Source: Bacteriovoracaceae bacterium (lineage in GTDB: Bacteria; Bdellovibrionota; Bacteriovoracia; Bacteriovoracales; Bacteriovoracaceae). Taken from it: DNA of 49,118 nucleotides. The stretch spans positions 1 to 49,118 of the forward strand of contig CANFHC010000025.1 in assembly GCA_947446575.1 (NCBI GenBank), in the 5' to 3' direction. The notes under the pieces are model-generated. The model worked only from the letters and a program-made list of their open reading frames with translations. It made no database searches and was not told the origin of the DNA. The position numbers were made by a program, and so were the translations under genes. Positions 6,208-13,282 of this stretch are shown piece after piece (the first letter of the stretch is position 1; every line of letters starts with the position of its first letter).

Positions 6208-7119
6208 ATGAGTACTGATGATACAACCATCGTCTTAACAGATATAAGAGCAGCTTTGCAAGCTTCAGAAAAAGAAGCGCAACTAAAACCTGCGGCACTT
6301 CTGGTTGTTGGTGGCGATTTAAATGGAACTCTCTTTGATTTAATTGGACCGCAAGTTGGAATCGGAAGAAATGCTGACAATACAATTGCATTGGAATTCA
6401 ATGGTGTTTCAAGATACCACTTCAAACTTTTAGCAAGTGGTGAAACACATGTATTAGAAGATTGTGGATCAAAAAACGGAACTTATCTCAATAATAAAAA
6501 AGTAGAGATGCTCACTCCCCTTGCTAAGGGTGACATTATCAAAATTGGAAGTATCGCCCTTAAGTATTTACCTAAAGGTGACCCAGAACGATTAACTTAC
6601 GATAAATTAAATCTTGAAGCTAATACTGATAAACATACTGGTTGCTATAACAAAGGTTATTTCAACAACCGCATCACCCTAGAAGTAAACAAATGCAAAG
6701 TAACAGGTGAGCCGCTTTCACTTATTATTTTTGACTTGGATCATTTTAAAAAATTAAATGATGGTTACGGACACGATGCTGGTGACTATGTTTTAAAAGA
6801 AATGGCCGCTATTATTCGAGCAAACGGCATTCGTGAGCAAGATGTATTTGCTCGCTACGGTGGAGAAGAATTCGTCATTCTTCTTCCAAAAACAAATCTA
6901 AAGCAATCATTCGAAATCGCTGAACGACTTAGAAAATTGATTGAGAACAAAGAATTTCTTTACGATGGGAAAAGACTTCCTGTTACAGCATCTATCGGAG
7001 TTGCAGATTATCGCCAAGGCGTTGTCACCGGAACAGATCTTTTCAAAAGAGCTGACGAGGCCGTCTATAAAGCTAAGGAAGGCGGCAGAAATCAAGTACA
7101 ATTCTATAGGGGCCAATGA
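6208..7119 (+). CDS. FHA-GGDEF diguanylate cyclase
   Basis: Makes the second messenger c-di-GMP from two GTP. Residues about 30-115 form an FHA phosphothreonine-binding domain, with the conserved GIGR, VSRYH and SKNGTYLN motifs. Residues about 130-303 form the GGDEF domain, with the active-site loop GGEEF at 218-222 and the FDLDHFKKLND metal-binding strand. An inhibitory RxxD site (R209 to D212) lies five residues before the loop, so product inhibition is expected. There is no membrane segment. The FHA domain implies that activity or location is set by a phosphorylated partner; a Ser/Thr kinase is encoded at 13288-15291. FHA-GGDEF cyclases are known in Bdellovibrio, where they govern predation decisions; a similar role here is inference. 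The stop overlaps the mutL start by four bases. Confidence 0.93.
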   Translation: MSTDDTTIVLTDIRAALQASEKEAQLKPAALLVVGGDLNGTLFDLIGPQVGIGRNADNTIALEFNGVSRYHFKLLASGETHVLEDCGSKNGTYLNNKKVEMLTPLAKGDIIKIGSIALKYLPKGDPERLTYDKLNLEANTDKHTGCYNKGYFNNRITLEVNKCKVTGEPLSLIIFDLDHFKKLNDGYGHDAGDYVLKEMAAIIRANGIREQDVFARYGGEEFVILLPKTNLKQSFEIAERLRKLIENKEFLYDGKRLPVTASIGVADYRQGVVTGTDLFKRADEAVYKAKEGGRNQVQFYRGQ

Positions 7120-8816
7120 GTCTAGAGAAACGCGACTTTTCTAATCCAAAAATTGAAATTTTGCCCGAACATATTATCGACCAAATCAAGGCCGGAGAAG
7201 TCTTAGAGCGCCCTGCCTCTTTAGTTAAAGAGTTGATAGAGAATTCGCTAGACGCTGGATCAACTGAAATCAATTTACACCTCATCGAAAATGGTCTCGA
7301 CCTCTTGTCTATTGAAGACAATGGGCATGGGATGAATTTTGAAAATCTTCCGTATGCTTTTCTACGCCATGCTACATCTAAATTAAAAACTTACGACGAT
7401 CTTTATCGTCTTCATAGTTTTGGTTTTAGAGGAGAAGCACTAGCAAGTGTAGCAGCTTCAGCAAGAGTGACATGCACGAGTCAGCCTCATGATTTAAATG
7501 TTGATGGTGGAAAACTTATAATTAATGGAGGCGCACAAGAATTATTAATTCCTAACCGTGCTAGCTCGCAAGGAACAAGTCTTTATATCAAAGATTTGTT
7601 TTACAATACACCTGCTCGCTTAAAATTTATTAAATCAAAAGTCAGCGAAAAATCTGCACTCAAAAAAATGCTTTATGCTTTCGTTTTGTCTAATCCTCAT
7701 ACTCATTTTTCCATAAAATGGGATGAAAAAGAGAGAGAGATTTTTAAGCCTGAAACAAGTATTGCGAGAGCTGCCCAAGTTTTTTTCGGAAGGGCCGCAA
7801 AAGATGGAAGTTTACAACTTTGGAATTCCTACGAAGAATATGACAACTATAAAGTAGAAGTTTATTTTTCACCGACTACTCACACGACTCCTCAATACCG
7901 CCACCATTATCTTTTTGCCAACAATCGTTTTTTTCAAGATAAGTCCTTGCACTCGGCAGTTCTTAGAACTCTTGAGCCACTTTGGCGCTTTGGTGAAAGT
8001 GGCCATTATATGGTCAAAATAACAGTCCCTCCCACCGACATCGATGTAAATGTACATCCTAATAAAACTCAAATAAAATTTTTAAAAGCAGATGTCATTT
8101 ATTCTTTATTGGTCACGGGTTTAAAGTCTGCAATGAAAAAAAATGCAGTGGCTGAAGCAGATCCAACTCCAGCTTACAAGCAAGATCAGTTTTTTTCGAG
8201 AGATGAAAATCAAACTTTCGATCTTATGAATATGACAAATCAGACAGGCTCGATGGATGTCTCTGATCAGTCTTCCCTATTTTCTCAAGCATCAGAGAGT
8301 TCATCCCCTCTGATAGGTTTTATAGACACATCCATTGTACTCTTAAAACTAGATGGATCATTTTACGTTTGTGATTTAAACAAAATGATGGCTGAATATA
8401 TTTCTACTTCACTTGCACAATTTAGAGAAAAAGAAGAAGTCTCAGGGCCATTGCTTATAAGTGAGCCTTTTAAAATTTCTAAGGGAAAAATTGATAATCA
8501 CTTTGAAGATTTAAAAAACTTAGGTTTTGAATTAGATCGATTAAATTCTGAAGTTATCGCTCTCAGAACTCTCCCTCGATTCGTTCCCCAAGCTCTCTCT
8601 CGCGATATAACTAACACTCTCATAAATTTTTTTGATCAAGCAAAAAATCGTGAGTACAGTCTCGATCAAGTAAATCTTTTCCTTCAAGCCAATTACCCAA
8701 AGGTCTTTTCTATTCCAGAACATCTTATTGTTTTAATAGTTGAAAGACTTCACCAGGCTAAAGGAAGTTCATTAGTTCTTTTGTCTGAAAAAAACGTTAA
8801 AGGACTATTGAAATGA
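7116..8816 (+). CDS. mutL: DNA mismatch repair protein MutL
   Basis: 566 residues. The N-terminal GHKL ATPase domain is intact: IENSLDAGS, the ATP-lid IEDNGHGM, FLRHATSKL and HSFGFRGEALASVA. It is followed by the transducer domain, with LFYNTPARLKF and the DVNVHPNKTQIKF signature. After a polar linker the C-terminal dimerisation domain (about 405-566) is present but has lost the endonuclease signature. Where DQHAxxE is expected there is D420-LNKMMAEY, and no C-terminal metal-binding Cys/His cluster is seen. MutL couples MutS mismatch recognition to strand removal; nicking by this protein itself looks unlikely. It overlaps the cyclase gene upstream and miaA downstream by four bases each. The mutL-miaA order is conserved in many proteobacteria. 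Confidence 0.95.
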   Translation: MSLEKRDFSNPKIEILPEHIIDQIKAGEVLERPASLVKELIENSLDAGSTEINLHLIENGLDLLSIEDNGHGMNFENLPYAFLRHATSKLKTYDDLYRLHSFGFRGEALASVAASARVTCTSQPHDLNVDGGKLIINGGAQELLIPNRASSQGTSLYIKDLFYNTPARLKFIKSKVSEKSALKKMLYAFVLSNPHTHFSIKWDEKEREIFKPETSIARAAQVFFGRAAKDGSLQLWNSYEEYDNYKVEVYFSPTTHTTPQYRHHYLFANNRFFQDKSLHSAVLRTLEPLWRFGESGHYMVKITVPPTDIDVNVHPNKTQIKFLKADVIYSLLVTGLKSAMKKNAVAEADPTPAYKQDQFFSRDENQTFDLMNMTNQTGSMDVSDQSSLFSQASESSSPLIGFIDTSIVLLKLDGSFYVCDLNKMMAEYISTSLAQFREKEEVSGPLLISEPFKISKGKIDNHFEDLKNLGFELDRLNSEVIALRTLPRFVPQALSRDITNTLINFFDQAKNREYSLDQVNLFLQANYPKVFSIPEHLIVLIVERLHQAKGSSLVLLSEKNVKGLLK

Positions 8817-9781
8817 GTCATGCCAATAAGCTGATTATCATCTCAGGCCCAACTGCTTCAGGTAAAACAAAAACCAGCATCGATTTAGCAGAAAAAATAA
8901 TGAATCAATTAAAAATTCCAACGGCCATCGTTAATTTTGACTCGCTCTTATTTTATAAAGAACTTTCAATTGGGACAGCTAAACCTACTCTCGATGAACA
9001 AAAAGGCATACCTCACTTCATGATAGACATTGAATCAATCTGTTCTCCGATGAACGCATCTGATTTTATTAAAATTTGCGAAAATAAAATCACTGAATTA
9101 TTAAATAAAAATATTTGTGTGATTTTAGTTGGGGGAAGTGCTTTTTATCTGCGTGCTCTATTAAAAGGTATGTACGAATCGACATCTCCAAGCAAAGAAA
9201 TAAAAAATAAATATGACCAAATTTTAAAAGATAAAGGGATTGACGCCATAGTTGATTATTTACAACTGCATGATCCCGAATCTCTGAAAAATTTGCATTT
9301 AAATGATCATTACAGATTATCGAGGGCCGCTATCCACTTCGAGATGACAGGGACAAAAATCTCTGAGCAAAAGCAGAACTTAGACGACCTTTTCCCCTAT
9401 GACTTTAACGAAATCGTTCACCCATGGAAATTTATTCACTTTTATCTAGATTTACCGAAGGATGAACATTTTAAAATCATTACAAGTCGTACAGAAAAAA
9501 TGTTTGCTGATGGACTTATGTCTGAAATTCAAAAATTACAAGACGACGGCTTCTCATTAGATGAAAAACCACTAAGTTCTATCGGGTATAAAGAGGCCAT
9601 TGAACTAAGAAATGGTCAATTTCCAAGTGAAGAAGCCTGCATTGAGCGAATCTCAATATCCACACGCCAGTTGGCCAAATCACAACGCACTTTTTTTAAA
9701 AGAATTATACCTAAGTACAACTGCAATCCCCTAAAAGATCAAGACAAAATTTTCTCTCTCGTGGAGCTATTCCTCAGATAG
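8813..9781 (+). CDS. miaA: tRNA dimethylallyltransferase MiaA
   Basis: It transfers a dimethylallyl group to A37 of tRNAs that read codons starting with U. The P-loop GPTASGKTKTS lies at residues 11-21. The substrate-binding NFDSLLFYKELSIGTAKPT replaces the more usual DSMQVYRGLDIGTAKP, with the Gln-Val pair substituted. VGGSAFYLRALLKG and SIGYKEAIELRNG follow. The C-terminal RQLAKSQRTFFKR matches the conserved tRNA-contact helix (normally RQLAKRQxTWFR). The length of 322 residues is typical. It is translationally coupled to mutL by a four-base overlap. Confidence 0.94.
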   Translation: MSHANKLIIISGPTASGKTKTSIDLAEKIMNQLKIPTAIVNFDSLLFYKELSIGTAKPTLDEQKGIPHFMIDIESICSPMNASDFIKICENKITELLNKNICVILVGGSAFYLRALLKGMYESTSPSKEIKNKYDQILKDKGIDAIVDYLQLHDPESLKNLHLNDHYRLSRAAIHFEMTGTKISEQKQNLDDLFPYDFNEIVHPWKFIHFYLDLPKDEHFKIITSRTEKMFADGLMSEIQKLQDDGFSLDEKPLSSIGYKEAIELRNGQFPSEEACIERISISTRQLAKSQRTFFKRIIPKYNCNPLKDQDKIFSLVELFLR

Positions 9782-9828
9782 TGATAAAATAAACTTATGT
9801 TTATACAGGCACAAGTAAAGGAATAGTC

Positions 9829-10692
9829 ATGTCACTAGAAACTCAACGTTTAAAAATTATTGTAATTTCTGATGGTACCGGCGAAACGGCAACGGCGATC
9901 TCAAGAGCAGTTATGGCACAATTTAAAGATCGTGAAGTTTATTTTACTCGTTATAAAAATATTAGAACCATTGAACAAATTGATGCCATTTTTAATGAAG
10001 CGGCGATTCATCACGATCTTGTTATTCATACAATTGTTTCTGGAAAATTGCGTGAATATATTGCAGAACTTTCTCGAACTAAACATGTGCGAACTCTCGA
10101 TCTTATAGGCCCTGCTCTAACTGCATTTTCAAATTATTTTAATCAAGAACCTATGTCTGAGCCTGGTCTTCTTCGTGCCGTAAACGAAGAGTACTATAAA
10201 AGAGTGGAGGCGATGGAGTTTACCCTTAATCATGATGATGGAAGAAACCTAGCGTCACTTCATTTAGCTGATGTTATTTTGGTTGGCGTTTCTCGTACTT
10301 CAAAAACTCCATTGTCTGTTTATCTCTCTCAACATGGGATTAAAGTTGTCAATATTCCCATGATTAAAGATCAGCCGCTTCCACTTGAATTGCTGGAAGT
10401 TGATCAAAGAAAAATTTTTGCATTAACAATTGATCCTGATTCTCTTTCTGAAATCAGAAAAAACAGACTTCAACGACTGGGCGCTGATAAACATCAAGGT
10501 GAATACGCTGAACATCATAAAATTGTAGAAGAAATTGAATGGGCCAATAAAATATTTAAAGAAAATAAGCGTTGGCCTGTTTTTAATGTTACAGATAAAG
10601 CCTTAGAAGAAACGGCTGCAGATATTTTGAAACTTCTCAATATGAGAAAGAATAATATTTTTAAACAAACAAAAAATGAGCCTACGGAATAA
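9829..10692 (+). CDS. Pyruvate phosphate dikinase / PEP synthase regulatory protein (DUF299)
   Basis: This 287-residue bifunctional regulator uses ADP to phosphorylate, and phosphate to dephosphorylate, a threonine of pyruvate-phosphate dikinase or PEP synthase, switching that enzyme off or on. The N-terminal VISDGTGETATAISRAV and the P-loop-like VGVSRTSKTPLSVYLSQHG near residues 150-170 are the family hallmarks. IPMIKDQPLP and the C-terminal SLSEIRKNRLQRLG also fit. The gene has its own AAAGGAA ribosome site 47 bases after miaA. The target enzyme is not in this window. Which of PPDK or PEPS it controls cannot be told from sequence by eye. Confidence 0.92.
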   Translation: MSLETQRLKIIVISDGTGETATAISRAVMAQFKDREVYFTRYKNIRTIEQIDAIFNEAAIHHDLVIHTIVSGKLREYIAELSRTKHVRTLDLIGPALTAFSNYFNQEPMSEPGLLRAVNEEYYKRVEAMEFTLNHDDGRNLASLHLADVILVGVSRTSKTPLSVYLSQHGIKVVNIPMIKDQPLPLELLEVDQRKIFALTIDPDSLSEIRKNRLQRLGADKHQGEYAEHHKIVEEIEWANKIFKENKRWPVFNVTDKALEETAADILKLLNMRKNNIFKQTKNEPTE

Positions 10693-10694
10693 AG

Positions 10695-12026
10695 ATGGAA
10701 ATCTTTAAAGACTTAAATGATATTACTTTGCACTTCTCTAAGACGGTGGGAACTAATATATACAATGAACAAGGCCAGAAGCTCGGAAGACTTTCTGATT
10801 TTTTTATTGATTACGAAGAAATTTATCCTTCAGTTTTGGCACTACAGTATAAACGCAGTGGCGTTGTTTTTTATATTTTATGGTCAGAAGTTTTAAATTT
10901 TTCTTATAAAAAAATTATCATTAAAAATGATGCTTTCCCGAGAAGAAGTCGAACATTTCCAAAAACTCTTAATACTAAGACAGTAACAAGTATTTTAGCG
11001 AATCAATTCGCTGGCCCAACAGTTGAGTATCCTCCCCTGGGACAAATCGTTCTTGATAAACAAATTGTCGACACTCATGGAAAAAAAGTTGTTCGTGTCA
11101 ATGACATTCAGTTTATCCGAGCAGGAAAAGATCTGCGTGTCACTCATGCCGAAGTTGGATTGCGCAGTTTTGTGAGACGATTAAGTCTTGAATCACCTAT
11201 TGATTTCTTTGTTAAAGTCATTCGTCCAACATCTAAATATCTAAGTAATGACACTACTATTAATTGGAAATATGTTCATGCTATTCCCAATAGAAATATT
11301 CAAAAGAGTGTTCGCTTAAATCTTACCAACGAAGATTTAAGAGAATTGCATCCAGCGGATCTTGCAGACATTCTAGAAGATTTAGATAGTCATGGTAGAG
11401 AGATGATTTTCTCTAACCTTGACCCAAAACTTGCGGCTGAAACTCTTTCTGAAGTTGACGAAGATTTGCAAGCCTCTTTACTGGAAAATGAAAATCCAGA
11501 AAAAGCTGCTGAAATTATCGAGAACATGGACACCGATGATGCTGCTGATTTATTGAATGAACTAGATGAGGATAAAGCAGATGCCATCATTTCCAATATC
11601 GACGACTTGGAAATCCAAGAAGAAATCCAAGAGCTCCTAGAACATGACGAAGACACTGCCGGTGGTCTTATGACTTCTGAAATTTTTGAAGTCAATGCTG
11701 ACTTAACTAAATCAGAAGTATTAAAATTAATTCAAGAAAAGCATGATGAGGTTGTCTCTTTTTTTGATATTTATGTAATTGATGAAAACAAAAAATTAAT
11801 AGGAACTCTGTCATTGCAAGAAATGCTTATTCATCAAGAAAACTTAACCGTTTTAGAAATGATGAACGATTCCGATATCAAATTTATGAATGTAGATACA
11901 CACTGGAAAGAAGTTGCTAACTTCATGAATAAATATAACATGATCACTGTACCTATTGTTTCCGATGATAATGAACTTCTTGGAATGGTTTCAGTTGATG
12001 ATATTCTCGATAGGCTCCTTTCATGA
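10695..12026 (+). CDS. Soluble PRC-barrel / MgtE_N / CBS protein, likely regulator of the adjacent Nramp-type transporter
   Basis: 443 residues with no membrane segment. Residues about 12-75 and 115-165 look like two PRC-barrel beta domains. Residues about 215-325 are the acidic helical MgtE_N superhelix: LHPADLADILEDLD, then repeats such as ENPEKAAEIIENMDTDDAADLL. LLEHDEDTAGGLMTSEI then matches the start of the MgtE CBS region, and two CBS motifs follow (about 325-443, ending LLGMVSVDDILDRLL). In MgtE this cytosolic half senses Mg2+ and gates a C-terminal membrane pore. The pore is absent here; a separate Nramp-family gene overlaps the 3' end by four bases. Many Asp/Glu residues suit divalent-cation sensing. 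A function as cation-sensing gate or partner of that transporter is inference. The gene begins two bases after the regulator gene upstream. Confidence 0.85.
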   Translation: MEIFKDLNDITLHFSKTVGTNIYNEQGQKLGRLSDFFIDYEEIYPSVLALQYKRSGVVFYILWSEVLNFSYKKIIIKNDAFPRRSRTFPKTLNTKTVTSILANQFAGPTVEYPPLGQIVLDKQIVDTHGKKVVRVNDIQFIRAGKDLRVTHAEVGLRSFVRRLSLESPIDFFVKVIRPTSKYLSNDTTINWKYVHAIPNRNIQKSVRLNLTNEDLRELHPADLADILEDLDSHGREMIFSNLDPKLAAETLSEVDEDLQASLLENENPEKAAEIIENMDTDDAADLLNELDEDKADAIISNIDDLEIQEEIQELLEHDEDTAGGLMTSEIFEVNADLTKSEVLKLIQEKHDEVVSFFDIYVIDENKKLIGTLSLQEMLIHQENLTVLEMMNDSDIKFMNVDTHWKEVANFMNKYNMITVPIVSDDNELLGMVSVDDILDRLLS

Positions 12027-13282
12027 AAATAGAATCTAAGAAAAAATTCTTATCTCCTTTTTGGATAAAATTAACTTTATTTTTAAGTATTGTTGGCCCT
12101 GGTCTCGTTACTGCGAATCTTGATAATGACGCCGGAGGAATTGCCACTTACTCTCTTGCTGGTGCCCAAACGGGATATCGATTTTTATGGCTACTCCTTC
12201 CCGTAACTGTGGCATTGGTCATGTTTCAAGAAATGTCTGCGCGTATGGGGATTGTTTCCGGAAAAGGATTGGCCGATTTAATCCGTGAAAAATTTGGACT
12301 TCGGATTACTTTCTATGCTCTTTTCTTTCTCCTATTTGCAGATCTTGGAAATACGATGGCGGAGTTTGCTGGGATTGCCTCGTCTGGAGAAATTTTTGGA
12401 GTTTCTCGTTATTTTACAGTACCTATTTGTGCCACTCTCGTTTGGCTATTAGTTTTAAAAAGCGATTACAAAGGTGTAGAGCGAATTTTTATTCTTGGCT
12501 GCTGTGTATTTCTCACTTATATAGTTTCAGGATTTTTAGTTGGTCCAGACTGGGGAGAGATTACAACTTCAATAATTAAACCCAACTTCACTTCTATTTC
12601 CATAAAAGACTTACCAATCATGGTGGGTTTAATGGGAACTTCTATAACCCCATGGATGCAATTTTATATTCAGGCCGCTGTGGTAGAAAAAGGAATTCCG
12701 ACTAAACATCTTTGGCATTCTAAAATTGATGTTATCGCTGGATGCACTCTAACATTAATCGTTTCGATGTTTATTATGATTTGTTGTGCGGCAACTATTC
12801 ATAAGGCCGGCATAAGTATCACAGATGCAAAAGATGCGGCCATTGCTTTGCAGCCGCTCGCTGGAAAATATGCTTCTATGCTTTTTGGCTTTGGTTTATT
12901 TAATGCTTCATTTTTTGCAGCGGCAATTTTACCACTCGCTGCCAGCTATTACATATGCGAAGGAATGGGTTGGGAGTCTGGAGTCGATAAAACTTTTAAA
13001 GAAGCTCCACATTTTTTTTCCGTGTTTACTTTTATGATTGTTATCGGTGGAGCTATTACACTGATTCCGAATATCAATCTCTTTAATATTCTCTATTACT
13101 CACAAGTCATTGATGGATTACTTATACCAATTGTTATACTTTTTATTATTAAACTTTGTAATGATCCAGATATCATGGGTGAGTTTACCAACTCTCCCAC
13201 TCAAAACTTTATTAGTTATATATTGGTATTTTTGATGTTTTTATTAAACATTCCTATGATCTATTATACTTTTTTCCATTAA
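12023..13282 (+). CDS. Nramp-related divalent metal (probably Mg2+/Mn2+) transporter
   Basis: This 419-residue inner-membrane protein has about eleven hydrophobic segments of LeuT fold. In the Nramp family two unwound helices bind the ion through DPGN (helix 1) and a Met-Pro-His (helix 6). Here helix 1 reads GPGLVTANLDNDAGG, so the aspartate is kept at 36 but Pro and Asn are Ala37 and Gly39. Helix 6 reads GTSITPWMQFY, so the transition-metal-selective Met is Thr209 before Pro210. Loss of that methionine is the hallmark of Nramp-related Mg2+ transporters, which prefer hard ions. The overlapping upstream gene carries the MgtE Mg2+-sensing half, which independently points to Mg2+. The start ATG lies inside the end of that gene. 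Confidence 0.88.
   Translation: MKIESKKKFLSPFWIKLTLFLSIVGPGLVTANLDNDAGGIATYSLAGAQTGYRFLWLLLPVTVALVMFQEMSARMGIVSGKGLADLIREKFGLRITFYALFFLLFADLGNTMAEFAGIASSGEIFGVSRYFTVPICATLVWLLVLKSDYKGVERIFILGCCVFLTYIVSGFLVGPDWGEITTSIIKPNFTSISIKDLPIMVGLMGTSITPWMQFYIQAAVVEKGIPTKHLWHSKIDVIAGCTLTLIVSMFIMICCAATIHKAGISITDAKDAAIALQPLAGKYASMLFGFGLFNASFFAAAILPLAASYYICEGMGWESGVDKTFKEAPHFFSVFTFMIVIGGAITLIPNINLFNILYYSQVIDGLLIPIVILFIIKLCNDPDIMGEFTNSPTQNFISYILVFLMFLLNIPMIYYTFFH

Follow-up and report, generated by a model that had tools for sequence, protein, structure and literature searches.

An NRMT-type Nramp-fold transporter and its conserved MgtE-like soluble partner in Bacteriovoracaceae: a probable Mg2+ (or Mn2+) uniporter paired with a putative cytosolic sensor

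The closest described systems are the NrmT/NRMT loci of Shin et al. (2014; PMC4072509), who named NrmT and proposed NRMTs as a fourth class of bacterial Mg2+ importer. Most NrmT genes, which encode Nramp-outgroup transporters, adjoin a gene for a soluble homolog of the N-terminal cytoplasmic domain of MgtE, and a role in cytoplasmic feedback or as a chaperone was proposed for this partner (PMC4072509). Two NrmT members from Clostridium acetobutylicum transported Mg2+ without the partner. The NrmT of Acidobacterium capsulatum, whose partner gene is adjacent, acted as a Mn2+ transporter, rescuing Mn2+ uptake but not high-affinity Mg2+ uptake, and co-expression of the partial MgtE gene made Mg2+ rescue no better (PMC4072509). 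NRMTs are now recognized as a clade of Mg2+ transporters, one of which, EleNRMT, has a solved structure (PDB 7qia; Ramanadane et al. 2022, PMC8806188) and transports both Mg2+ and Mn2+. MgtE is closed by Mg2+ bridging its N domain, CBS domains and plug helix (PMC5882242), and the residues of the ATP site of TtMgtE are known (PMC5529423). In the literature searched we found neither a post-2014 paper on the NRMT partner nor a study of how NRMTs avoid overloading the cell.

The window analysed here is a 49,118-nt stretch of a Bacteriovoracaceae genome, and all coordinates below are window positions on the plus strand. It holds two intact ORFs of this kind. Gene 1 (10695–12026, 443 aa) is the NRMT partner, a soluble protein with the layout PRC, PRC-like, MgtE_N, CBS, CBS, whose best PDB matches are MgtE cytosolic domains. 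Gene 2 (12023–13282, 419 aa) is an NRMT-type Nramp-fold transporter by its Pfam Nramp and EleNRMT matches. The two genes overlap by a shared stop/start, ATGA, at 12023–12026; the sequence-only reading had these ORFs, their coordinates and the shared bases right. It had also presented the genes as a swapped sensor-pore pair. Homology and neighborhood uphold the combination of an MgtE-type sensor with an Nramp pore, but not its novelty: the pair is real, well conserved and of a kind already reported in 2014 (PMC4072509). The two genes form the tail of a same-strand run, mutL-miaA-PSRP-like-partner-NRMT (7116–13282). Across Bacteriovoracaceae miaA, usually together with a PSRP-like gene, lies upstream of the pair, an odd home for a Mg2+ transporter.

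Gene 2 matched the Pfam Nramp profile (PF01566) at E 7e-94, and its best solved match was EleNRMT (7qia) at E 6.7e-105, the next match reaching only 2.7e-20; the fold of a 66%-identical relative aligned to 7qia with a TM score of 0.93 on the target. Its metal-site positions are D36, G39, T206, T209, W211, E114 and Q361. In helix 1, D36-A-G-G39 (12128–12139) stands for the classical Nramp DPGN, and in helix 6, T206...T209-P-W211 (12638–12655) stands for the classical A...M-P-H, so that Thr206 takes the place of the Ala and Thr209 that of the Met. This register, including DAGG for DPGN and Thr209 for Met as originally read, was confirmed by alignments to EleNRMT, to DraNramp and to about 150 homologs, which rule out a misread site. 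Gene 2 thus carries the NRMT signature, with Asp kept, helix-1 Asn changed to Gly and helix-6 Ala changed to Thr. It shares these states and the Nramp fold with EleNRMT, along with Trp replacing His and the conserved Glu and Gln; the two differ at the Met position, where EleNRMT has Ala. With classical Nramp/MntH proteins (DraNramp, EcoDMT) it shares the LeuT-like fold and the helix-1 Asp, but not the DPGN/Met/His site, and classical copies lack a partner gene.

Site states were tallied more widely. All eight classical Nramps read DPGN/A...M/H. Among 139 paired NRMTs, 95 had DAGG with Thr...Ala (in 15 of these Asn replaces the helix-3 Glu), and the other 44 had DAGG or DASG with Thr...Thr and otherwise the NRMT signature. 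Judged from these alignments, DAGG is the usual NRMT signature of PMC8806188 and nothing odd. At the Met position Thr is found in a minority of NRMTs, less often than Ala, and occurs in Bacteriovoracaceae, some Bacillota and other lineages. Both helix-6b histidines of gene 2 are replaced (by W211 and a Gln), a change that fits a loss of proton coupling. The segment C312–F331 (12956–13015), in predicted cytoplasmic loop 8–9, is a candidate docking surface; it includes a short insertion (about FKEAP) that NRMTs conserve and that aligns to a gap in classical Nramps.

Pfam placed a PRC domain at residues 15–52 of gene 1 (PF05239, E 1e-6), MgtE_N at 218–320 (E 3e-24) and two CBS domains (E 4e-15). 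There was no Pfam match to the MgtE membrane domain and no transmembrane segment, the maximum 19-residue hydropathy being 1.04. A structure model of mean pLDDT 83 was confident within domains, but not between them (pTM 0.52), and contained beta-barrels at about 10–80 and 115–196, an MgtE_N superhelix at 212–316 and a CBS pair at 320–442. The first barrel (residues about 10–80; 10722–10934) encompasses the Pfam PRC match, with strands and a pLDDT mostly above 85. The second (residues about 115–196; 11037–11282) is a putative PRC-like barrel, drawn from the secondary structure of the model and having no separate Pfam match. The initial description of PRC-like domains, MgtE_N and two CBS motifs with no membrane helix therefore agrees with Pfam and hydropathy, the second barrel coming from the model. 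In a fold search, residues 213–443 matched MgtE cytosolic structures at Z about 20; the matches listed were filled by the CBS domain and included no separate PDB match to the PRC barrels, and so were uninformative on the PRC-barrel fold. Many of the most invariant partner residues are not in the sensor but in the second barrel and linker (D121–D137, R161, R162, W191). Of these, the D121–D137 motif (DKQIVDTHGKKVVRVND; 11055–11105) contributes D121, Q123, D126, R134, N136 and D137, all invariant columns in 67 homologs and 96–99% conserved in 139 paired homologs.

The remainder of gene 1, an MgtE_N superhelix (residues 218–320; 11346–11654) and a CBS pair (residues 324–442; 11664–12020), resembles the TtMgtE cytosolic domain (2yvy/2zy9), including acidic residues of the Mg4, Mg6 and Mg7 sites. 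TtMgtE residues mapped to E249 (Mg7), D281 (Mg4) and D285 (Mg6) in the superhelix, and to D436 (Mg4), N415 and D439 (both Mg5) in the CBS pair. The positions of E249, D281, D285 and D436 (TtMgtE E59, D91, D95 and D247) were acidic in 95, 86, 100 and 86% of partners. Random sets of acidic TtMgtE positions reached this four-position mean in 0.3% of draws (p about 0.003), a result that is supporting, not decisive, as the subset was picked after seeing the data. The Mg5 site was not retained across partners (25% and 54% acidic), and for all six mapped Mg-site positions together the excess over chance was not clear (p about 0.1). Gene 1 ends four residues past D439, the equivalent of D250, and the plug helix with its Mg2 and Mg3 residues is absent. 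Gating by plug insertion is therefore excluded, and any gating needs another contact.

The ATP site has diverged as well. Gene 1 shows the changes Y170D, R187Q, V207K and F227M relative to TtMgtE, so that most ATP-binding residues are lost, and at the F227 position 120 of 139 partners have Leu or Met. MgtE-like ATP regulation of gene 1 was considered and is unlikely: a second, complete MgtE in the same genome (L003, about 51.7 kb) retains the ATP-site Y, R, N, V and F, whereas gene 1 does not keep most of the site. No match to CorA was found in this genome. Calling gene 1 the same sensor as that of MgtE was thus too strong. The MgtE_N/CBS architecture and the Mg4, Mg6 and Mg7 residues are kept, but the plug helix and MgtE membrane domain are missing, ATP-site residues are changed and PRC barrels are added.

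The survey of neighborhoods that the sequence-only reading had proposed showed the neighborhood to be conserved. The partner gene adjoined the NRMT at 139 of 143 distinct NRMT loci, which strengthens the association noted by Shin et al. (2014). These loci were collected by their resemblance to the window proteins and over-represent the subclade of those proteins; scans of other phyla extended the pattern. Three of the four unpaired NRMTs were cut by contig ends and one was a real exception. This exception, a Nitrospirae NRMT without a neighboring partner (L114, 1141–2382), is a useful natural control. No partner was found beside any of the eight classical DPGN Nramps or the four stand-alone DPSG paralogs. 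In the reverse direction, an NRMT adjoined the partner at 30 of the 30 best partner loci in Desulfobacterota. Among 57 relatives, the partner lay beside all 14 close orthologs (not counting that of the window), and the more distant Nramp paralogs had no adjacent partner. Gene order was partner-first in 126 cases and partner-second in three, with opposite strands in eight; with order and orientation so variable, one frozen operon does not explain the adjacency. No natural partner-NRMT fusion, of the kind whose search had been suggested, was present in any locus retrieved.

The four-base overlap had been taken to imply coupled translation. The overlap is real, but it is restricted to close relatives; other pairs have a gap between the genes, the reverse order or one gene on each strand, and translational coupling is therefore not a conserved feature. 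In many Geobacterales pairs the genes share one frame with a single TAG between them (L070, L079, L083, L084, L094, L095 and others). Stop-codon read-through joining the two was considered there and rejected, since the downstream gene begins at a start of its own beyond an intergenic stretch, and the stop seems particular to the lineage.

Four plasmid regions, from Alicyclobacillus, Citrobacter, Cellulomonas and Mycolicibacterium, were inspected and carry related pairs; a similar partner gene is present on a plasmid of Serratia. The Citrobacter and Cellulomonas plasmid pairs (L117, L118) adjoin an ArsR/SmtB regulator and a heavy-metal P-type ATPase, which suggests a context of metal resistance; in the Cellulomonas copy DAGG is replaced by DAGA. 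Among 16 long loci drawn from several phyla, five had an aptamer of the M-box Mg2+ riboswitch upstream of the pair, as did four of 39 further loci, many of which had short flanks. No M-box was found in the window; this, together with the mutL-miaA-PSRP run and the four-base overlap, distinguishes the Bacteriovoracaceae copy from the NrmT loci of Shin et al.

To probe association, the pair of a relative (L048; carrier 66% identical to that of the window) was folded as one chain, reading its single in-frame TAA as Gln. The two proteins were fused artificially for this purpose, with no claim that the organism itself reads through. It gave pTM 0.74 and mean pLDDT 88.9, from mostly unpaired alignment rows and with no interface coordinates or PAE to inspect; a rough calculation puts the pTM expected of two freely floating halves at about 0.54. 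The predicted fold thus weakly favors a complex. Relative to the lone partner, pLDDT rose most in the PRC module, by about 8 points compared with 3 for MgtE_N and 5 for CBS, although sequence and alignment also differed between the two models. Contact in such a complex may possibly run through the PRC barrels.

We consider it most likely that gene 2 is a uniporter for Mg2+ (or Mn2+) and gene 1 a sensor in the cytosol; homology and the conserved neighborhood support the assignment to these two ions made at the outset. We lean, with moderate confidence, to a joint reading in which gene 2 is an NRMT Mg2+ carrier and gene 1 a dedicated sensor partner that slows the carrier at high Mg2+. Gene 2 would pass hydrated Mg2+ (and Mn2+) inward down the electrochemical gradient without proton coupling. 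Gene 1 would act as its dedicated cytosolic partner, with the tandem PRC barrels as docking module and the MgtE_N/CBS part as divalent-cation sensor. High cytosolic Mg2+ would bridge MgtE_N to the CBS pair through the Mg4, Mg6 and Mg7 equivalents, and the sensor, so compacted, would slow the carrier via a contact other than the MgtE plug helix. The more specific proposal, that gene 1 supplies a separable gating subunit whose PRC barrels dock on the cytoplasmic side of an Nramp fold and which provides Mg2+ feedback without a plug, is tentative and may well be wrong. Several results count against a sensor gate: Mg2+ transport without the partner, the lack of gain on co-expression and the Mn2+ rescue by the A. 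capsulatum protein (PMC4072509), besides the lost Mg5 site, the six-position p of about 0.1 and the lack both of any fusion and of an M-box in the window.

Alternatively, the pair could be regulated in the same way, with Mn2+ or some other divalent metal taking the place of Mg2+ as physiological ion and signal. The A. capsulatum result, obtained with an NrmT whose partner is adjacent, points this way (PMC4072509), as does transport of both ions by EleNRMT (PMC8806188). The genome around the window adds that a complete MgtE is present and a classical Nramp is not, so that the NRMT may be the Mn2+ route; the window itself lacks an M-box, and gene 2 has Thr, not Ala, at the Met position. Yet the acidic sites retained in the partner are Mg2+ sites in MgtE, riboswitch-linked relatives point to Mg2+, and gene 2 is without the Met that selects transition metals. 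On balance we regard a switch of ion as rather unlikely.

Two further explanations give the partner no gating role. As a Mg2+ buffer or chaperone, the latter a role named by Shin et al. (2014), or as an assembly factor for the carrier, it would account for transport proceeding without it (PMC4072509), for the absent plug helix, and for the placement of many top-invariant residues in the second barrel and linker instead of the sensor. Its MgtE_N/CBS architecture and its Mg4, Mg6 and Mg7 residues are nonetheless those of a known gating sensor. An ion at millimolar concentration hardly needs a chaperone, which we also count against this explanation, and we hold it to be unlikely. Mere co-expression, with both genes responding to Mg2+ stress and their proteins not interacting, could draw on the riboswitch leaders common to both genes in some lineages and on the functionally unrelated operonic neighbors in the window (mutL, miaA, PSRP-like). 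Near one-to-one adjacency in several phyla despite rearranged order, the absence of the partner beside classical Nramps and the pTM of 0.74 for the read-through pair all argue against it, making it quite improbable.

As the association was already published in 2014, the value of these results lies in mechanism, not in discovery of the pair. That nearly every NRMT surveyed has an MgtE-type sensor as neighbor suggests an answer to how NRMTs avoid overloading the cell. The pairing also lends itself, as found in nature, to testing whether a single regulatory module can govern two membrane folds unrelated to each other. If gene 1 is indeed a separable gate, one sensor module would have been reused on an unrelated membrane fold with a different coupling mechanism.
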